Of a stretch of DNA of 64,000 nucleotides, positions 22,917 through 36,338 are shown piece by piece. The stretch lies in contig JAITLR010000021.1 of NCBI GenBank assembly GCA_031277805.1, positions 1-64,000 on the forward strand, written 5' to 3'. The notes below the pieces were generated by a model, which was given only the letters and a program-made list of their open reading frames with translations, had not been told where the DNA came from and did not search any database. How positions within the stretch are numbered: position 1 is the first letter of the stretch; every line of letters starts with the position of its first letter. The position numbers were made by a program, and so were the translations under genes. This stretch comes from Comamonas sp. GTDB lineage: Bacteria > Pseudomonadota > Gammaproteobacteria > Burkholderiales > Burkholderiaceae_C.

Positions 22917-23096
22917 GCACCAGTTAAGTGCTTGATGTAGCAGAAAAAACCTCGATTACATGCACCAAGACAAAACAGTCCAACACCAGAAAGACAGCTT
23001 CATGCACCGAATCCATGCATGAAGGCATAACTTTTTGGCATAATCTTGGTTGCGCGATTTTTCAGCGTCCCTCCTTGTCTAGTCAGAAAGTTCTCT
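22917..23096 (+). promoter_or_regulatory. gdhA leader and promoter region
   Basis: This AT-richer segment precedes gdhA. A -10-like CATAAT lies at 23039-23044, but the hexamer 17 bases upstream (TGCATG) is a poor -35. There are near-repeats around CATGCACC and CATGCATGAAGG (22999-23024). A TGGCAT...TTGCG sequence superficially recalls a sigma-54 site but has the wrong spacing. Confidence 0.3.
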
Positions 23097-24443
23097 ATGA
23101 AGTACGAGTCCGTAGGCCAATTCCTGGAAGAAGTGGCACAACGCAATCCCGGTCAGCCCGAATTCCTGCAAGCCGTCACCGAAGTGATGGAAAGCCTGTG
23201 GCCCTTCATTGAGAGCAACCCCAAGTACGCCGAGCACTCCCTGCTGGAGCGACTGGTCGAACCTGAGCGCATCATCCAGTTCCGCGTGAGCTGGTCTGAC
23301 GACAAGGGCCAGGTGCATGTGAACCGCGGCTTCCGCATTCAGCACAGCATGGCCATCGGCCCCTTCAAGGGCGGTCTGCGCTTCCACCCCTCGGTGAATC
23401 AGTCGGTGCTGAAGTTCCTGGCTTTCGAGCAGACCTTCAAGAACGCTCTGACCACGCTGCCCATGGGCGGTGGCAAGGGCGGCTCCGACTTCGACCCCAA
23501 GGGCAAGAGCCCTGCCGAAGTCATGCGCTTCTGCCAGGCTTTCGTGACCGAGCTGTTCCGTCACGTCGGCCCTGACACCGATGTGCCCGCAGGCGATATC
23601 GGCGTGGGTGGCCGCGAAGTCGGCTATATGGCTGGCATGTACAAGAAGCTGTCGAACACCGCTGCCAGCGTGTTCACGGGTAAGGGCCTGTCCTTCGGCG
23701 GCTCGCTGATCCGTCCCGAAGCCACCGGCTACGGCACCGTGTACTTCGCCCGTGAAATGCTGGCCACTCGCGGCCAGTCGTTTGAAGGCAAGACCGTGTC
23801 CGTGTCCGGTTCGGGCAACGTGGCTCAGTACGCCGTGGAAAAGGCCATGGAACTGGGCGCCAAGGTCGTGACCGTGTCCGACTCCTCGGGCACCGTGTAC
23901 GACCCCGCTGGTTTCACCACCGAAAAGCTGGCCATCCTGATGGATGTGAAGAACCACAAGTACGGCCGCGTCAGCGACTACGCCAAGCTGGTTCCCGGCG
24001 TGGAATTCCTGGCCGGCAAGTGCCCCTGGTCCATCAAGGTGGACGTGGCCCTGCCTTGCGCCACTCAGAACGAACTGACCGAAGCCGATGCCAAGGCCCT
24101 GATCGCCAACGGCGTTCTGTGCGTGGCTGAAGGCGCCAACATGCCTTCCACCAACGAAGCCGCCCGTGCTTTCGAAGCGGCTGGCGTGCTGTACGCTCCC
24201 GGCAAGGCATCCAACGCCGGTGGCGTGGCCACTTCCGGTCTGGAAATGTCTCAGAACGCGGCTCGCCTATCCTGGCCTGCCGAAGAAGTGGATGCCCGTC
24301 TGCTGCAGATCATGCAAGGCATCCACGCAGCTTGCGTGAAGTACGGCAAGCGCGAAGACGGCACCGTGAGCTACATCGACGGCGCCAACATCGCCGGCTT
24401 CGTGAAGGTCGCTGACGCCATGCTGGCACAAGGCGTGATCTAA
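23097..24443 (+). CDS. gdhA: NADP-specific glutamate dehydrogenase
   Basis: This hexameric cytosolic enzyme reductively aminates 2-oxoglutarate to glutamate with NADPH. The 448-residue product matches the small hexameric class: GPFKGGLRFHPSVNQSVLKFLAFEQ, the catalytic-lysine region LPMGGGKGGSDFDPKGKS, PAGDIGVGGREVGYM, the nucleotide-binding loop VSGSGNVAQYAVEKA and CATQNELTEADA. ATG 23097 gives the family N-terminus (MKYESVGQFLEEV); the frame is open 17 codons further upstream. The Shine-Dalgarno is weak (AGAAAG). The codon choice is highly biased, as expected for a strongly expressed gene. A terminator follows. Confidence 0.96.
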   Translation: MKYESVGQFLEEVAQRNPGQPEFLQAVTEVMESLWPFIESNPKYAEHSLLERLVEPERIIQFRVSWSDDKGQVHVNRGFRIQHSMAIGPFKGGLRFHPSVNQSVLKFLAFEQTFKNALTTLPMGGGKGGSDFDPKGKSPAEVMRFCQAFVTELFRHVGPDTDVPAGDIGVGGREVGYMAGMYKKLSNTAASVFTGKGLSFGGSLIRPEATGYGTVYFAREMLATRGQSFEGKTVSVSGSGNVAQYAVEKAMELGAKVVTVSDSSGTVYDPAGFTTEKLAILMDVKNHKYGRVSDYAKLVPGVEFLAGKCPWSIKVDVALPCATQNELTEADAKALIANGVLCVAEGANMPSTNEAARAFEAAGVLYAPGKASNAGGVATSGLEMSQNAARLSWPAEEVDARLLQIMQGIHAACVKYGKREDGTVSYIDGANIAGFVKVADAMLAQGVI

Positions 24444-24465: not shown

Positions 24466-24492
24466 AAAAAAAGGCCCTTACGGGCCTTTTTT
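24466..24492. terminator. Bidirectional terminator after gdhA
   Basis: The stem GGCCC (24473-24477) pairs with GGGCC (24482-24486), extended by A/T pairs, with A-tract and T-tract flanks. It lies between convergent genes. Confidence 0.88.
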
Positions 24493-24519
24493 CATGTCTG
24501 CAGCAGCCGCAGCGCAGTA

Positions 24520-26646
24520 TCAATGCGCAGGTGCCGCAAGCGCACGCATCCAGCCGGCGCGCTCCTTCTCTTCCAGCTTCAGCAAGCTCTCGGGCGATCC
24601 GCCTCCGCCCACAACCTGAAGCTCCTGCAAATGCTTTTGCACCTCGGGCCTCGCAAGCACCTGAGCCACGGCCTCCTGCAGGCGGCGGTCGGATGCGACA
24701 TCAGAGTCCGCGGGCGCCCAGAGGCTGAAATGGTCATAGACCGTGTAGTCCGCCAAAACCGCACTCGACGCCAACGTCGGCCATTGCTGTCCCTCAAAGC
24801 TTTGAGGATGAGCGGGAGCCGCCGTCGTTCCCAACACCCGCAACTGGCCACGCCGCACCGCCACAGCCACGCCGTTGACCGGGGCGAACAGCAGATCGGC
24901 TGCATGCTCTTTGGTAATGACATCAGAGTCCGGGTACATGCCTGGGTAGACCACACGCTGCACATCGACCCCACTCAGCGCCTGGAACTGGCCAAAGGCA
25001 AGATGCCCTGTCCCTCCATCAGCTCCTGTGCCAATGCGCAAGCTGCCAGGATGCACTCGCGCGTATGCCAGCAATTCGTCCATATTGTGAATGCCCAACT
25101 CATCGGCCCTGGCACTGTCAATCGCCAGGACCATGGGTTGTGAAGCCACCAGAGTGACGGGGCGCAAAGACTGCAGCGAGTCACTGATGGGCGCCCCCTG
25201 ATGCACGCCTTCGATCCCCCCGCGAGGCAGTCGCAAAGCTGCCAGCAAAACAGTGCTATTGCCACCCTCCATCGCCAGGCGGCGGTAATCCGCCTCGGTG
25301 GCCTCTGGCACATGATCGACCTGCACGCTACGCCCCAGCAGATTGGGCAGGTTTGCAGCCAGCATGCCGGCATAGTGGCTGCTGCGCCCGCCGGGCGGAA
25401 ACGGTACGGTGATGTGCAACGGAGCTTGGCGCACCGGGGTAAGCCACTGGCCAGAATCATTGAGCAGCCCGTAACGAATCACCCATTGCCCGTCAGTAGA
25501 GCCATTGCGCACTACAGCTTCGGCCACCCAGTAGCGGCCCATGCGATAGAACTGGCGGATGACCGGCCAGTCCTCTTGCCATCCCGGTGGCCGCCAATCC
25601 TCCGGAAACAAGTCATTGACAACGGCATAGCCATTGCGAAATGGGCGAGCTTCCAGGAACTGCGGCGCTATCACCCACTGACCTTGCGCATCCTGATAGC
25701 CCCACTTGCCAGTGCTTGTGTCCTGCACCAGCCGCGGGGCAGCGCTGCCATCACCACCTTTGAGCTTTTGCCAACGACAATCGAACCGCGTGACGGTCCG
25801 GCGCCTGGCATCGAATTCGGCGGCGATGCATAGCCGGATGCGGCGCTGCGCCGTCGCATCCGGCAGATTGTCGAAGACAAAAGGCACCACCATTTTTCCC
25901 CGTACATCGATCAGCCCCTTGCCGGTGGACCCCGGAGGAATGAGGAGCCGCCTGTACGCCAGCCAGTGCGCGGTGGTGAGCTCTTTTTGCGGCGCCGATG
26001 TGAGCCATCTGCCCTGCGCATCACGCAAGCCGGGCTGCGTGTACAGCTTGTCCACCCACAAATCCGAGGCGGGAGCAGTGAACCCTTGCGGATGCAGGTA
26101 CAAAAGCGCATCAGAGGATTCGACGCTGAAGGTGTCTTTGCCATCACAGCTCTTGGGCGGGACCGCCCAATGGCCTTGCGCATCCAGGCGCCCAAAACCC
26201 ACATTGCTCCGCTTCCTTCCACCAGGGACTTGCTCGACCAGCCACACCTTGAACATCGGCTGGTATTCGGGATTGAGTGAAATGCTCTCCACCCGCACCA
26301 CCTTCCATCGACCATCGCAAAAGCTGCGCGCCGCGGGCGACAGAGTCAGCATGCGACCATCGTCGGTGTTGAACAATGCGGGAGTCAGTTCGCTTTTCTG
26401 GCTGGGGTTCAGGCTCAACCAGCGCAGGCGCTCAATCAGCTTGGGTGAGATCCCGATTTCGAACGCAAAGATATCCTCCCAGCGCGGTGCCTGCGGCCCC
26501 ACCGGCTGCAACTGCCAGGTGGGCTGCATGGGCAAGTCACGCTCAGGATGGTTGTACAAATCCTGATAACTTGGCTGAGCCGCATGGACCGAGCACAAGG
26601 TGGAGCCAAGCCACAGCAGGGCAGAGAAGACAAACTGGCGCTTCAT
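24520..26646 (-). CDS. Exported WG-repeat protein fused to a Bug/TctC-type binding domain
   Basis: The product (708 residues from ATG 26646) has a signal peptide (MKRQFVFSALLWLGSTLCSVHA). Residues about 24-400 contain WG-type beta units, for example GKWGYQDAQGQWVIAPQFLEA, GLIDVRGKMVVPFVFDNL, GRLDAQGHWAVPP and YGLLNDSGQWLTPV. The last 300 residues (about 409-708) are a Bug-like binding domain: LHITVPFPPGGRSSHYAGML, LLGRSVQVDHVPEATE, GSLRIGTGADGGTGHLAF and the final helix VQKHLQEL. Bug proteins are normally stand-alone receptors of about 320 residues. The typical VPYKGGG motif is replaced by VVYPGMYP. Ligand and function are unknown. The ORF reads 60 codons further upstream without good initiation context. 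Confidence 0.8.
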   Translation of the reverse strand: MKRQFVFSALLWLGSTLCSVHAAQPSYQDLYNHPERDLPMQPTWQLQPVGPQAPRWEDIFAFEIGISPKLIERLRWLSLNPSQKSELTPALFNTDDGRMLTLSPAARSFCDGRWKVVRVESISLNPEYQPMFKVWLVEQVPGGRKRSNVGFGRLDAQGHWAVPPKSCDGKDTFSVESSDALLYLHPQGFTAPASDLWVDKLYTQPGLRDAQGRWLTSAPQKELTTAHWLAYRRLLIPPGSTGKGLIDVRGKMVVPFVFDNLPDATAQRRIRLCIAAEFDARRRTVTRFDCRWQKLKGGDGSAAPRLVQDTSTGKWGYQDAQGQWVIAPQFLEARPFRNGYAVVNDLFPEDWRPPGWQEDWPVIRQFYRMGRYWVAEAVVRNGSTDGQWVIRYGLLNDSGQWLTPVRQAPLHITVPFPPGGRSSHYAGMLAANLPNLLGRSVQVDHVPEATEADYRRLAMEGGNSTVLLAALRLPRGGIEGVHQGAPISDSLQSLRPVTLVASQPMVLAIDSARADELGIHNMDELLAYARVHPGSLRIGTGADGGTGHLAFGQFQALSGVDVQRVVYPGMYPDSDVITKEHAADLLFAPVNGVAVAVRRGQLRVLGTTAAPAHPQSFEGQQWPTLASSAVLADYTVYDHFSLWAPADSDVASDRRLQEAVAQVLARPEVQKHLQELQVVGGGGSPESLLKLEEKERAGWMRALAAPAH

Positions 26647-27038
26647 CAAATAGTCTCCGGCCACATATCGCCTCAGAGCGCGAATATGAAGGGGGTGAAG
26701 ATAGATGCAAGATTTGACAGAGCACTCTCGCCCGCAAATTCTGCCATAGCGATACTTGCAGAGCTTGGCCCCAAGCTGCCATTCAAGAAGCCGTTGCCGC
26801 ATGGCATCTTCATCAGATTGGCCCAAGGTTTCAATGCAGCAACGCCAGCCTCTTGTGCCTTGTCACAGTTGCAAGCCTTGAAGGCGTGCGCGAGCGCGAT
26901 CTGAGCCTTCAGGCTTTTGTAGGCTTTTTCATACCTGCTGCAGATGGATGGGACTGGATGTAGGTAGTGCTTCCCGCCAGAAGCTGCTGTTTGCCCAGGA
27001 TCAACCATGAGGCAACACATGCTGGAGAATCCCATTCC
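26647..27038. other. Divergent gap between the WG-Bug gene and chrA, with one doubtful ORF
   Basis: This 392-base gap must hold promoters for both flanking genes. A minus-strand ORF (26673 to 27020 or 27047) encodes a moderately protein-like, alanine-rich sequence (KAYKSLKAQIALAHAFKACN, GSLGPSSASIAMAEFAGESA) with several cysteines near its start. It overlaps the chrA start if the longest form is used and has no evident Shine-Dalgarno. It may be a small unknown gene or chance. Confidence 0.3.
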
Positions 27039-28280
27039 ATGAATCATCCACGACCAGCCGGTTCAACTCCGCCAACGGCATCCAGCCCTGATGAGCCAGT
27101 GGGCCGTGGCAGATTTTTCGAAGTGCTTCTTGCGTTTCTGAAACTGGGCATGACCTCCTTCGGTGGACCGATTGCTCATCTGGGCTACTTTCGCACGGAG
27201 TTTGTAGAGCGCCGAAAGTGGCTGGATGACCAGAGTTATTCGGATTTGGTGGCGCTTTGCCAGTTTTTGCCAGGCCCTGCCAGCAGCCAGGTCGGCATGG
27301 CTCTGGGGCTTGGGCGCTCCGGCTGGTGCGGTGCCCTGGCCGCGTGGATCGGTTTCACGCTGCCTTCCGCAGTTGCACTGATTCTTTTTGCCATAGGCCT
27401 ATCGCATTGGGCAGGAATTGCACAATCAGGAGCCATACATGGGCTGAAAGTCGTGGCCGTGGCAGTCGTTGCGCAAGCGGTTTGGGGAATGGCCAAATCT
27501 CTTTGCCCGGACAGGCCACGCGCCGGAGTAGCCGTGGTTTCGGCCCTCCTGGTCTTGGCCGTGCCTTCTGCTATCGGTCAGATAGCGGCCATCATCTTTG
27601 GCGGCATGGTCGGACGATGGGCGCTGGCTTTCAATCAGCTACCTGTCGCTCAGCATCGCGAATATGGCGTGAGCAAGAAAACAGGGGCTGTTCTGTTGAG
27701 CCTCTTTGCTGTCCTGCTTGCCCTGCTGCCAATCCTGGCGGCGGCAGTACACCACCCTGCATTGACGATTTTTAGCGATTTCTATCAGGCGGGAGCCTTG
27801 GTTTTCGGCGGTGGTCACGTCGTGCTGCCCTTGCTGCAGACAAGCGTGGTCCCAGGTTCCATGTCGAATGAAACATTTCTGGCTGGCTATGGTGCGGCGC
27901 AGGCAGTGCCCGGGCCCTTGTTCACCTTCGCAGCCTATCTGGGTGCGGTCATGGCCAGCCCCTTGGGAGGCTGGGCCGGAGGGCTGATTTTGCTGATCGC
28001 GATCTTTCTTCCCGCCTTCCTGCTGGTCATGGGCGCATTGCCATACTGGGAGCCTTTACGCCAGCAAGCCGAAGTGCAAAAAGCCATGGCCGGGGTGAAT
28101 GCGGCCGTCGTTGGCATGCTGGGTGCGGCCCTGTATGACCCTGTGTGGACAAGCTCCATCCACTCCAAGGCAGATTTCGGGCTGGCCCTTGCCGCGTTTG
28201 GACTGCTTGTTTACGCGCGACTGCCGCCAGCGCTGGTCGTGCTACTTGCAGCTCTGGCCGGATGGCTTTTCGCCCTCTGA
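27039..28280 (+). CDS. chrA: Long-chain (two-domain) chromate transporter ChrA
   Basis: CHR-family membrane proteins export chromate. The 413-residue product has two homologous CHR halves: FFEVLLAFLKLGMTSFGGPIAHLGYFRTEFVERRKWLDD with LCQFLPGPASSQVGMALG in the first, and FYQAGALVFGGGHVVLPLLQ with GYGAAQAVPGPLFTFAAYLGA in the second, so it is the long-chain type. ATG 27039 is supported by GGAG about 12 bases upstream and by the short polar N-terminus before the first membrane segment. No chrB regulator is adjacent, so chromate-specific induction cannot be inferred. Confidence 0.93.
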   Translation: MNHPRPAGSTPPTASSPDEPVGRGRFFEVLLAFLKLGMTSFGGPIAHLGYFRTEFVERRKWLDDQSYSDLVALCQFLPGPASSQVGMALGLGRSGWCGALAAWIGFTLPSAVALILFAIGLSHWAGIAQSGAIHGLKVVAVAVVAQAVWGMAKSLCPDRPRAGVAVVSALLVLAVPSAIGQIAAIIFGGMVGRWALAFNQLPVAQHREYGVSKKTGAVLLSLFAVLLALLPILAAAVHHPALTIFSDFYQAGALVFGGGHVVLPLLQTSVVPGSMSNETFLAGYGAAQAVPGPLFTFAAYLGAVMASPLGGWAGGLILLIAIFLPAFLLVMGALPYWEPLRQQAEVQKAMAGVNAAVVGMLGAALYDPVWTSSIHSKADFGLALAAFGLLVYARLPPALVVLLAALAGWLFAL

Positions 28281-33999: not shown

Positions 34000-34998
34000 A
34001 TGCATTCCCGTCGTTCTTTTCTGCAGCATTCGCTGCTTGCTGCCAGCGCTGCCGGCTTCTCTTTCAACGCACTTGCCAAAGCAGTTGGTGCAGAGGCCGT
34101 ACCCCAGGCCAGCCGCATTCTGGTGGGCTTTGGTGCCGGTGGCGGTATTGACCTGCTGGCCCGCGTGCTGGCGGAAAACATCTCCACGCAACTGGGTAGG
34201 AGTCACTATGTGGTGGTGGACAACAAGCCTGGCGCCAACGGCCAGATTGCGGCGCAGACCCTGCTGAGCGCCCCCAACGACGGCAGCACCTATCTGATCG
34301 CACCGCTGATCACTCCTGTGCTCTCGCAGATCGTCTACAAAAAACCCGGTTACGACCCCGCGCGAGACTTTGCGCCCGTTGGCCTGCTCGCACATTTTCA
34401 GTTCGGTCTGGCCGTTCCCGCCAAACATCCGGCGCGCAATATTCGGGAATATGTGGCCTGGCTCAAGTCCAACCCCGACAAAGCCAATTTCGGCAGCCCT
34501 GCCGTGGGCAGCCTGCCGCATTTCTTTGGCCTGCTGCTGGGCGAGGCCGCCGGAGTGAACATCGTTCATGTGCCCTACAAGGGCGGCCCGGCCATGACAA
34601 CCGACCTGATCAGCGGCCAGCTGGCCTCTGCCATCCAGACCACCAGCGAGCTGGCGCCGCTGCACAAGGAGGGCAAGGTGCGCATTCTGGGCACTTTCGG
34701 CAATGAGCGCAGCCGCGAGTTGCCAGAGGTTCCGACTTTCACCGAAGCGGGCTACCCCAAGGCCACAGGCAGCGGCTGGTACAGCCTCTGGGCACGCAAA
34801 GGCACCTCGGAGGAGGCAATTGCCGCTGTCAACCGTGCCGTCAACCACGCCTTGAGCGACCCAAAACTGAAGCCCAAATGGGCCGAGCTGTCCCTGCAAC
34901 CTGACCCGCGCACACCTCAGGCCCTGGAGCAACTGCGCGTGGCGGAGATCGCCAAATGGCGCCCCGTCATCACGGCTTCCGGCTTTTCCATCGAATGA
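34000..34998 (+). CDS. Bug/TctC-family binding protein, coupled to a sulfatase gene
   Basis: The 332-residue product has a twin-arginine-like signal (SRRSFLQHSLLAASAAGFSFNALA) and the Bug pattern RILVGFGAGGGIDLLARVLAENI, VVVDNKPGANGQIAAQTLL, NIVHVPYKGGPAMTTDLISGQ and LPEVPTFTEAGY. Use of a Tat-type leader is less common for Bug proteins. Its stop overlaps the start of the sulfatase gene by four bases (ATGA, 34995-34998), which implies translational coupling and a shared pathway. The ligand may therefore be a sulfate ester or its product, but this is inference. Confidence 0.9.
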   Translation: MHSRRSFLQHSLLAASAAGFSFNALAKAVGAEAVPQASRILVGFGAGGGIDLLARVLAENISTQLGRSHYVVVDNKPGANGQIAAQTLLSAPNDGSTYLIAPLITPVLSQIVYKKPGYDPARDFAPVGLLAHFQFGLAVPAKHPARNIREYVAWLKSNPDKANFGSPAVGSLPHFFGLLLGEAAGVNIVHVPYKGGPAMTTDLISGQLASAIQTTSELAPLHKEGKVRILGTFGNERSRELPEVPTFTEAGYPKATGSGWYSLWARKGTSEEAIAAVNRAVNHALSDPKLKPKWAELSLQPDPRTPQALEQLRVAEIAKWRPVITASGFSIE

Positions 34999-36338
34999 CA
35001 TTGACCACTGATTCCATGACTGCTCCGAACATTGTTTTCATACTGGCCGACGACCTGGGCTGGGCCGATCTCGGCGTCTATGGCGCAACCGATTTCAAGA
35101 CGCCACACCTGGACCGCCTTGCCGCACAAGGCGTGCGCTTCAACCAGGCATATGCCAACTCCGCCGTATGCTCGGCCACACGCATTGCGCTCATCACTGG
35201 CCGCTATCAATACCGCCTGCAGGCGGGACTGGAGGAGCCTCTGGCACGCTACGGCGCCCAGCTAGGACTGCCGCCCGAACACCCCACTTTGCCCTCGTTG
35301 CTCAAGCAGGCCGGCTATGACACGGCCCTGATCGGCAAATGGCATCTGGGACAGCCGCCTGCCTTTGGGCCACAGCGCAGCGGTTATGACTATTTCTTTG
35401 GCAATCACCACGGCGCCATCGACTACTTCACGCACAAGCCCGGCGTGGGCGAGCAGTTCGGCCGCGACCTCTGGCAAGGCAGCGAACCCGTGGAACGCAC
35501 GGGCTACTACACCTATATCCTGGGCGATGAAGCCACGCGCTATGTGCACGAACGCCAGCACCAGGACAAGCCGTTCTTTCTTTCCCTGCACTTCACGGCA
35601 CCGCACTGGCCATGGGAAGGGCCGGACGACGAAGAAGCCTCGCGCAACATCAAAAGCCTGTTCCACTACGACGGCGGCAGTCTGAAGAAATACGGTGAGA
35701 TCGTCGAGGCACTGGACCAGGCCGTGGGCCAGGTGCTGCAGGCGCTCGATGACAGCGGCCAGGCGGACAACACCATCGTCATCTTCACCAGCGACAACGG
35801 CGGCGAGCGCTTCTCCAAGACCTGGCCTTTCACTGGCCAGAAAACCGAGCTGCTCGAAGGTGGCATACGCGTGCCCACGCTGCTGCGCTGGAGCGCCCGC
35901 ATTCAGCCCCAGATACAGGAACAGGTCACGGCCACTTTTGACTGGCTGCCCACGCTGCTGGCTGCTGCGGGTGCAGTGCAACACCCCGACTTTCCCAGCG
36001 ACGGCCAGAACATCCTGCCCATTCTGGAAGGCAAGGCCGACGGCACCGAGCGGACCTTGTTCTGGCGCTATAAATCCCAGAGCCAGCGTGCGGCACGCCA
36101 GGGTCCGTGGAAATATCTCAAGATCAATGACAACGAATTTCTGTTCAATGTTGTGGATGACGCCCGGGAGCGCGCCAACCTGAAGGAGCATCAGCCCGAA
36201 ATCTTTACCCGCCTGCGCAGGCAGTGGGAAGAGTGGAATGAAAACCTGCTGCCCATTGCCGCGGAAAACTACAGCCATGGTCTGTCGCCCGATATCCAGG
36301 CCGACCGCTATGTGCCTGGCCGCTTGACCCAGGGCTGA
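34995..36338 (+). CDS. Sulfatase (arylsulfatase family, formylglycine type)
   Basis: The 447-residue product is a type I sulfatase: metal-binding ILADDLGWADLG (Asp19-Asp20), the formylglycine site CSATRIALITGR (Cys59), GKWHLG, HFTAPHWPWEGP, IVIFTSDNGGERF and a late KTELLEGGIRVP. The maturation motif is C-S-A-T-R, not the commonest C-x-P-x-R, so alanine stands at the proline position. No signal peptide is seen, so it is predicted cytosolic. It overlaps the upstream Bug-type gene by four bases. A truncated copy of the palindromic element begins at the first base after its stop. Confidence 0.93.
   Translation: MTLTTDSMTAPNIVFILADDLGWADLGVYGATDFKTPHLDRLAAQGVRFNQAYANSAVCSATRIALITGRYQYRLQAGLEEPLARYGAQLGLPPEHPTLPSLLKQAGYDTALIGKWHLGQPPAFGPQRSGYDYFFGNHHGAIDYFTHKPGVGEQFGRDLWQGSEPVERTGYYTYILGDEATRYVHERQHQDKPFFLSLHFTAPHWPWEGPDDEEASRNIKSLFHYDGGSLKKYGEIVEALDQAVGQVLQALDDSGQADNTIVIFTSDNGGERFSKTWPFTGQKTELLEGGIRVPTLLRWSARIQPQIQEQVTATFDWLPTLLAAAGAVQHPDFPSDGQNILPILEGKADGTERTLFWRYKSQSQRAARQGPWKYLKINDNEFLFNVVDDARERANLKEHQPEIFTRLRRQWEEWNENLLPIAAENYSHGLSPDIQADRYVPGRLTQG

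Follow-up and report, generated by a model that had tools for sequence, protein, structure and literature searches.

A rare and conserved fusion of a WG-related module with a divergent Bug/TctC domain in Comamonas and on Variovorax plasmids

In a stretch of 64,000 nucleotides from Comamonas sp. (contig JAITLR010000021.1, here called the window), we observe a gene, termed WG-Bug in the following, that joins an N-terminal module related to WG repeats and a C-terminal Bug/TctC domain in one chain of 708 residues. A survey of the genus, of plasmids, and of samples of the family and the order shows that this fusion is genuine, conserved, rare and patchy in its occurrence. Both halves are maintained under purifying selection, and the Bug half has lost hallmark positions of ordinary Bug proteins, with other residues fixed in all copies. 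Our best guess at its role, held tentatively, is an orphan periplasmic adaptor that responds to a ligand and consists of a docking module and a refitted clamshell; a Bug half that no longer binds a ligand is a close second and the main rival.

Many bacteria encode far more Bug receptors than transporters. The genome under study is a case in point: it has 62 TctC matches, WG-Bug included, and two TctA matches, so that most of its Bugs are orphans. The TctA matches lie on other contigs, and none was found on the contig of the window (the genome is 86% complete). For such surplus receptors, a signalling role has been proposed in the accessible part of PMC5812351. WG-Bug, with its Bug domain joined to a non-transport module, lends itself to testing for Bug proteins with a task other than feeding a transporter.

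The features of the gene are collected in Table 1. Its frame is free of stops from the ATG to the TGA and runs convergent to a neighbour at 23046-24443 (+), by eye a glutamate dehydrogenase gene, and divergent from a second one at 26967-28280 (+), by eye coding for a ChrA-type transporter. Scanning for promoters returned none in each of three regions. The sequence-only reading had placed WG repeats and a Bug domain in the same exported chain, which is in good agreement with the Pfam results: PF14903 (WG_beta_rep) scores 52.1 bits at a curated cut-off of 25.6, with residues 315-343 as the best stretch, and PF03401 (TctC) scores 45.9 bits at a cut-off of 27, best within residues 489-678. No NCBIfam profile matched WG-Bug. 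By eye, the chain also looks exported, as its start resembles a signal peptide; Ala22-Ala23 at the end of this segment are invariant in 11 sequences.

Table 1. Coordinates of WG-Bug, its parts and the adjacent hairpin in the window
Feature	Residues	Position	Strand	Evidence
WG-Bug gene	1-708	24520..26646	-	ATG (26646) to TGA (24520), 708 aa; 10 full-length orthologues
Signal-peptide-like N terminus (MKRQFVFSALLWLGSTLCSVHAA)	1-23	26578..26646	-	by eye
N-terminal module, WG-related	24-404	25435..26577	-	Pfam, alignment
Partial WG-like unit	154-165	26152..26187	-	2.7 bits, i-Evalue 0.08; weak equivalent piece in 11/11 copies
Partial WG-like unit (GLRDAQGRW)	206-214	26005..26031	-	motif; sub-noise model piece in 5/11 copies
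Partial WG-like unit (GLIDVRGKMVVPFVF)	244-258	25873..25917	-	motif; aligned to WG unit of locus L016
Sole clear WG unit	313-343	25618..25710	-	43 bits, local WG model
Partial WG-like unit (GLLNDSGQW)	393-401	25444..25470	-	motif
Bug/TctC domain	409-702	24541..25422	-	Pfam, profile alignment, Foldseek
PGGR, GG loop of Bug proteins with Arg421	418-421	25384..25395	-	sequence comparison
VVYPGMYP, altered YKGGG loop	565-572	24931..24954	-	motif comparison
YDH, Asp638 at the place of TphC Thr242	637-639	24730..24738	-	invariant in 11/11
Terminator-like hairpin between the convergent lower-numbered gene and WG-Bug		24466..24493	-	-17.6 kcal/mol, z -3.4; 1/200 shuffles folds equally well; absent from pattern-scanner list

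A sequencing error that joins two genes is ruled out, since ten further full-length fused copies exist. The N-terminal 408 residues of WG-Bug were used as a query against 53 genomes of the genus of the window, and ten of them gave a hit at E <= 1e-6. In nine, counting the own genome, the hit spans nearly the whole query; in one (G020) it is confined to a WG repeat. The eight other WG-Bug copies of the genus are all full-length fused frames with about 60-69% identity. A tblastn search over 72,556 plasmid records gave 222 with any match and two that cover at least 80% of the query, namely orthologues from Variovorax paradoxus VAI-C and V. boronicumulans EBFNA2, each 68% identical and full-length. 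Both orthologue sequences, QRF62327.1 and WP_319362022.1, are already public, under names that cover a single half: one is a 'WG repeat-containing protein', the other a 'tripartite tricarboxylate transporter substrate-binding protein'. In two overlapping samples of 399 genomes each, the family sample yields three matches at E <= 1e-20, i.e., the own genome, G018 and decayed pieces in G198, and the order sample yields the own genome alone at E <= 1e-15. All 11 intact copies found are fused over their full length. Among 30 pattern matches on viral contigs there was no relative. The sequence-only reading knew of no described architecture of this kind, and neither do the matches listed in our search of mostly open literature, as far as the accessible parts of these papers go (among them PMC8767351, PMC8855297, PMC8078820, PMC2864759, PMC5994714, PMC5812351 and PMC8556258).

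Two further frames were considered as Bug fusions and rejected. A frame of 789 residues in L031 overlaps another Bug frame, and in one of 712 residues in L086 the Bug domain is immediately preceded by a start that resembles a signal peptide; by eye, both therefore look like read-through of ordinary Bugs. The decayed WG-Bug in G198, which belongs to another genus of the same family, lies at L028 9045-9922. Its N-terminal, WG and Bug pieces are in different frames, with one WG piece on the opposite strand.

Purifying selection maintains both halves: among 11 pairs chosen from 55, dN/dS is low throughout, at 0.14-0.30 in the WG half and 0.12-0.34 in the Bug half. The ratios of the two pairs with the window copy and of the WG half of L020-L021 are rough, as synonymous distances there exceed 1.

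The N-terminal module had been read as about 380 residues of WG-type repeats, which in this form is not supported. A local WG model, built on six canonical WG units from other WG proteins, finds one statistically clear unit, which is strong in all 11 copies; the remainder is degenerate at best. The model picks up the piece near residue 244, below noise, in nine of the 11 copies and that near residue 393 in seven of them; the window copy shows both as motifs only. Judged by its sequence, the half is fairly described as a WG-related module with one clear unit. Four cysteines, C110, C167, C273 and C290, are invariant in the 11 sequences. Like the WG (KWG) repeat proteins of PF14903, WG-Bug thus has a clear WG unit together with WG-like partial units, but it differs from them in having a single significant unit and in the Bug fusion.

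PF14903 matches occur in 12 of the 53 genomes of the genus, where they include seven WG proteins besides WG-Bug. Six of these seven (90 to 1164 aa) all match the N-terminal half of WG-Bug, whereas their comparison with the Bug half gave nothing better than E 0.3. A WG protein of a Syntrophaceae MAG is 29% identical to residues 206-344. In the accessible parts of the literature searched, no function is assigned to the WG module. In the own genome, a WG protein of 1098 residues (L029 5158-9956, contig C26) overlaps the end of an upstream frame by 4 bases. The counterpart of this upstream frame in G020 (L030 4622-6001) looks by eye like a lipoprotein, and the pair is present in both genomes.

The Bug half was taken to be full-length and divergent, and both points are borne out. 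A profile of the 11 orthologues aligns with its positions 401-707 (about residues 398-704) to nearly the whole receptor TphC (7ndr, E 2e-22), and the next matches are TBP, AdpC (5oei), Bug27 and BugD. Two structure models were computed, one from four sequences (window proteins only) and the other from a window protein and one protein of a related locus; both are of low confidence, with a mean pLDDT of 50 and 38, respectively. The Bug part of the former matches TphC in Foldseek (E 5e-13), and its best PDB matches are TphC, TBP, Bug27 and BugD.

For comparison we used 31 ordinary Bugs from among the 61 that the same genome encodes, three from the window and 28 from 30 fetched loci; in the two loci left out, L040 and L049, no frame was found. 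Only 8 of the 23 hallmark positions, defined as at least 90% conserved in these 31 proteins, are kept at that level in the 11 WG-Bugs. The motif P-F-x-A-G-G-x-x-D, as given in the accessible part of PMC8556258, is incomplete, with GG in 11/11 copies and D in 1/11 (vs 30/31 in ordinary Bugs). Likewise, the Y-[KR]-G loop has Y in 2/11, K/R in 5/11 and G in 9/11 WG-Bugs, where the ordinary Bugs have Y and K/R in 31/31 and G in 30/31. The altered YKGGG loop, noticed earlier in the window copy, is shared across the family, with [YF]-x-[GR]-x-x-[PS]-D-S-D-V in 10/11 copies and the exact string GMYPDSDV in 3/11. The Bug half is therefore more altered than the sequence-only reading had seen. With TphC, TBP, AdpC, Bug27 and BugD it shares the GG loop and an alignment over almost the entire receptor; it differs in the loss of 15 of 23 hallmarks, in the altered GGxxD and YKG motifs, and in being the C-terminal part of a 708-residue chain and not a free-standing protein of about 320 residues. 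In the Bug tree, all Bug halves group together (support 1.0), and the branch that leads to them is the longest, at 1.65 substitutions per site. A search of the 399 family genomes with the Bug half alone (five candidates scored for each genome) matched 11 at E <= 1e-28. Two of them are the fused copies and the other nine are 30-33% identical, so that within this sample and these candidates no free-standing relative exceeds 33% identity.

Residues of TphC that contact terephthalate include Q150, S154, T155, N197 and T242, according to the accessible part of PMC8556258. Three of these, Q150, N197 and T242, correspond to G541, P589 and D638 in all 11 WG-Bugs; the place of T155 is taken by T, I or V, and that of S154 by W in 10/11 copies and by G in the window copy (residue 545, 25012-25014, minus strand). 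Arg421, at the place of T35, is present in 11/11 WG-Bugs vs 0/31 ordinary Bugs, and neither D at the T242 place nor P at the N197 place occurs in any of the 31. Thus R421, P589 and D638 at cleft-lining places, and D543 and H639 beside such places, are fixed in all WG-Bugs and absent from the 31 ordinary Bugs. On this alignment the family has changed its cleft. Since ordinary Bugs, too, differ from one another at the TphC contact positions, this is a changed cleft and not the loss of a universal motif; all that follows is that a ligand, if there is one, differs from that of TphC. The TphC paper names 14 pocket positions. Four of them are invariant in the 11 WG-Bugs, as compared with 105 of the 279 columns of the domain, and 84% of random draws do as well. 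Conservation of these positions beyond that of the whole domain was not detected, a reason not to take the domain for a standard ligand-responsive one.

In the reading that we put first, tentatively, WG-Bug would be exported to the periplasm, where the WG-related module, probably braced by two disulfides, might provide the fixed surface on which another component of the envelope docks. The Bug clamshell would close on a small ligand other than the usual dicarboxylate, and the bound state would be relayed by protein contact instead of feeding a TctAB transporter. A precedent for signalling by a Bug protein is BctC, which acts with the sensor kinase BctE in a citrate system, as described in the accessible part of PMC5812351. 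The four invariant cysteines, the full-length fusion in every intact copy, the low dN/dS of both halves, the surplus of Bugs over TctA in the own genome, the Bug fold found by profile (and by Foldseek on a weak model) and the fixed cleft residues argue for such an adaptor. Against it count the ordinary conservation of the pocket positions, the low confidence of the models, the variability of the TphC contacts among ordinary Bugs, and the fact that no partner gene travels with WG-Bug.

Alternatively, the Bug half may have ceased to bind a ligand and have become a purely structural clamshell that, together with the WG module, makes contact with a protein or a surface in the envelope. We regard this, too, as a tentative explanation, ranked just behind the adaptor. 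It draws on the 15 lost hallmark positions, the bulky Trp at the S154 place in 10/11 copies, the pocket positions without extra conservation and the long branch in the Bug tree. It has difficulty with G541, D543, P589, Y637, D638 and H639, which are fixed at or next to the cleft throughout the family and suggest that the cleft still matters. By a further and more novel reading, which we consider doubtful, the WG-Bugs would make up a separate family of envelope receptors with two modules: a Bug clamshell refitted for a non-carboxylate ligand, its cleft positions occupied by Asp638, Arg421 and, in the majority of copies, Trp545, and a WG docking module to which it is permanently coupled. In that case a Bug protein would have given up its role as the receptor of a transporter and become a dedicated sensor or adaptor.

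The gene neighbourhoods bear on the question of whether WG-Bug is an uptake receptor that delivers its substrate to a shared TctAB or to a neighbouring SsuABC-type transporter. In five genomes of the genus (L022-L026), it is flanked on one side by a peroxidase-like CMD gene (TIGR04030) and on the other by an acyl-CoA-dehydrogenase-like gene, which is followed by an SsuBAC-type ABC transporter; upstream are TIGR04029, TIGR04027 and an oligopeptide-type transporter. Neighbour families were scanned in one of these five loci, L023. In V. paradoxus VAI-C, WG-Bug follows an operon of CMD, dehydrogenase and SsuBAC genes and so takes a different position; the CMD protein there shares only 23% identity with that of TIGR04030. 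It is suggestive that the gene stands beside related operons in two different arrangements. However, a terminator-like hairpin with a T run (-15 to -31 kcal/mol) separates the upstream operon from WG-Bug in the five linked loci. In L022, L023, L024, L025 and L026, respectively, 1, 33, 0, 15 and 5 of 200 shuffles fold equally well, so that three of the five hairpins are clear; that of L023 is absent from the pattern-scanner list. No such hairpin was seen before WG-Bug in V. paradoxus. An SsuA-like gene is found at E <= 1e-70 in 19 of the 53 genomes of the genus, five with and 14 without WG-Bug, and such a match is missing from 4 of the 9 genomes that carry WG-Bug. The hairpins and the mismatched distribution weaken the case for a common operon, and WG-Bug is probably a transcription unit of its own in loose association with the SsuABC-type cluster. 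As the SsuBAC-type operon also has its own substrate-binding protein and only five of the 11 copies retain K/R in the YKG loop, we consider delivery to a transporter improbable, and less likely than either the adaptor or the non-binding clamshell.

The same cluster of peroxidase, dehydrogenase and SsuBAC genes occurs without WG-Bug in G019 (L033 8023-9991), where the aligned ends are about 217 bases apart. In four of the five loci of one clade, a histidine kinase gene is found some 4 kb from WG-Bug, but it also lies beside the cluster in G019. With TIGR04027 to TIGR04030 and two transporters, the cluster of L022-L026 (e.g., L023 4257-18330) perhaps encodes a flavin-monooxygenase pathway.

The history of the gene would also be compatible with a fast-moving envelope gene for competition or surface variation, e.g., in immunity or adhesion, into which the Bug domain was recruited as a binding platform. 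Its presence is patchy, with several unrelated sites among the 11 copies; at the site shared by G018 and G017, WG-Bug is 73% identical, as opposed to 95-99% in 8 of the 11 other matched frames (the rest are at 91, 84 and 74%); a decayed copy exists in another genus, and G019 provides a natural site without the gene. This explanation has to contend with the low dN/dS, and with the finding that the 24 features annotated up to 6 kb from the two Variovorax copies include no toxin or secretion gene and that none was recognised among the scanned subset of neighbours elsewhere. We hold it to be improbable as well, on a level with transporter delivery and behind the two leading readings. The features near the Variovorax copies include one PDDEXK nuclease and one replication gene.

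Elsewhere in the window (34000-36338), a Bug gene overlaps the start of a frame that looks by eye like a sulfatase, which suggests a receptor for a sulfated compound.
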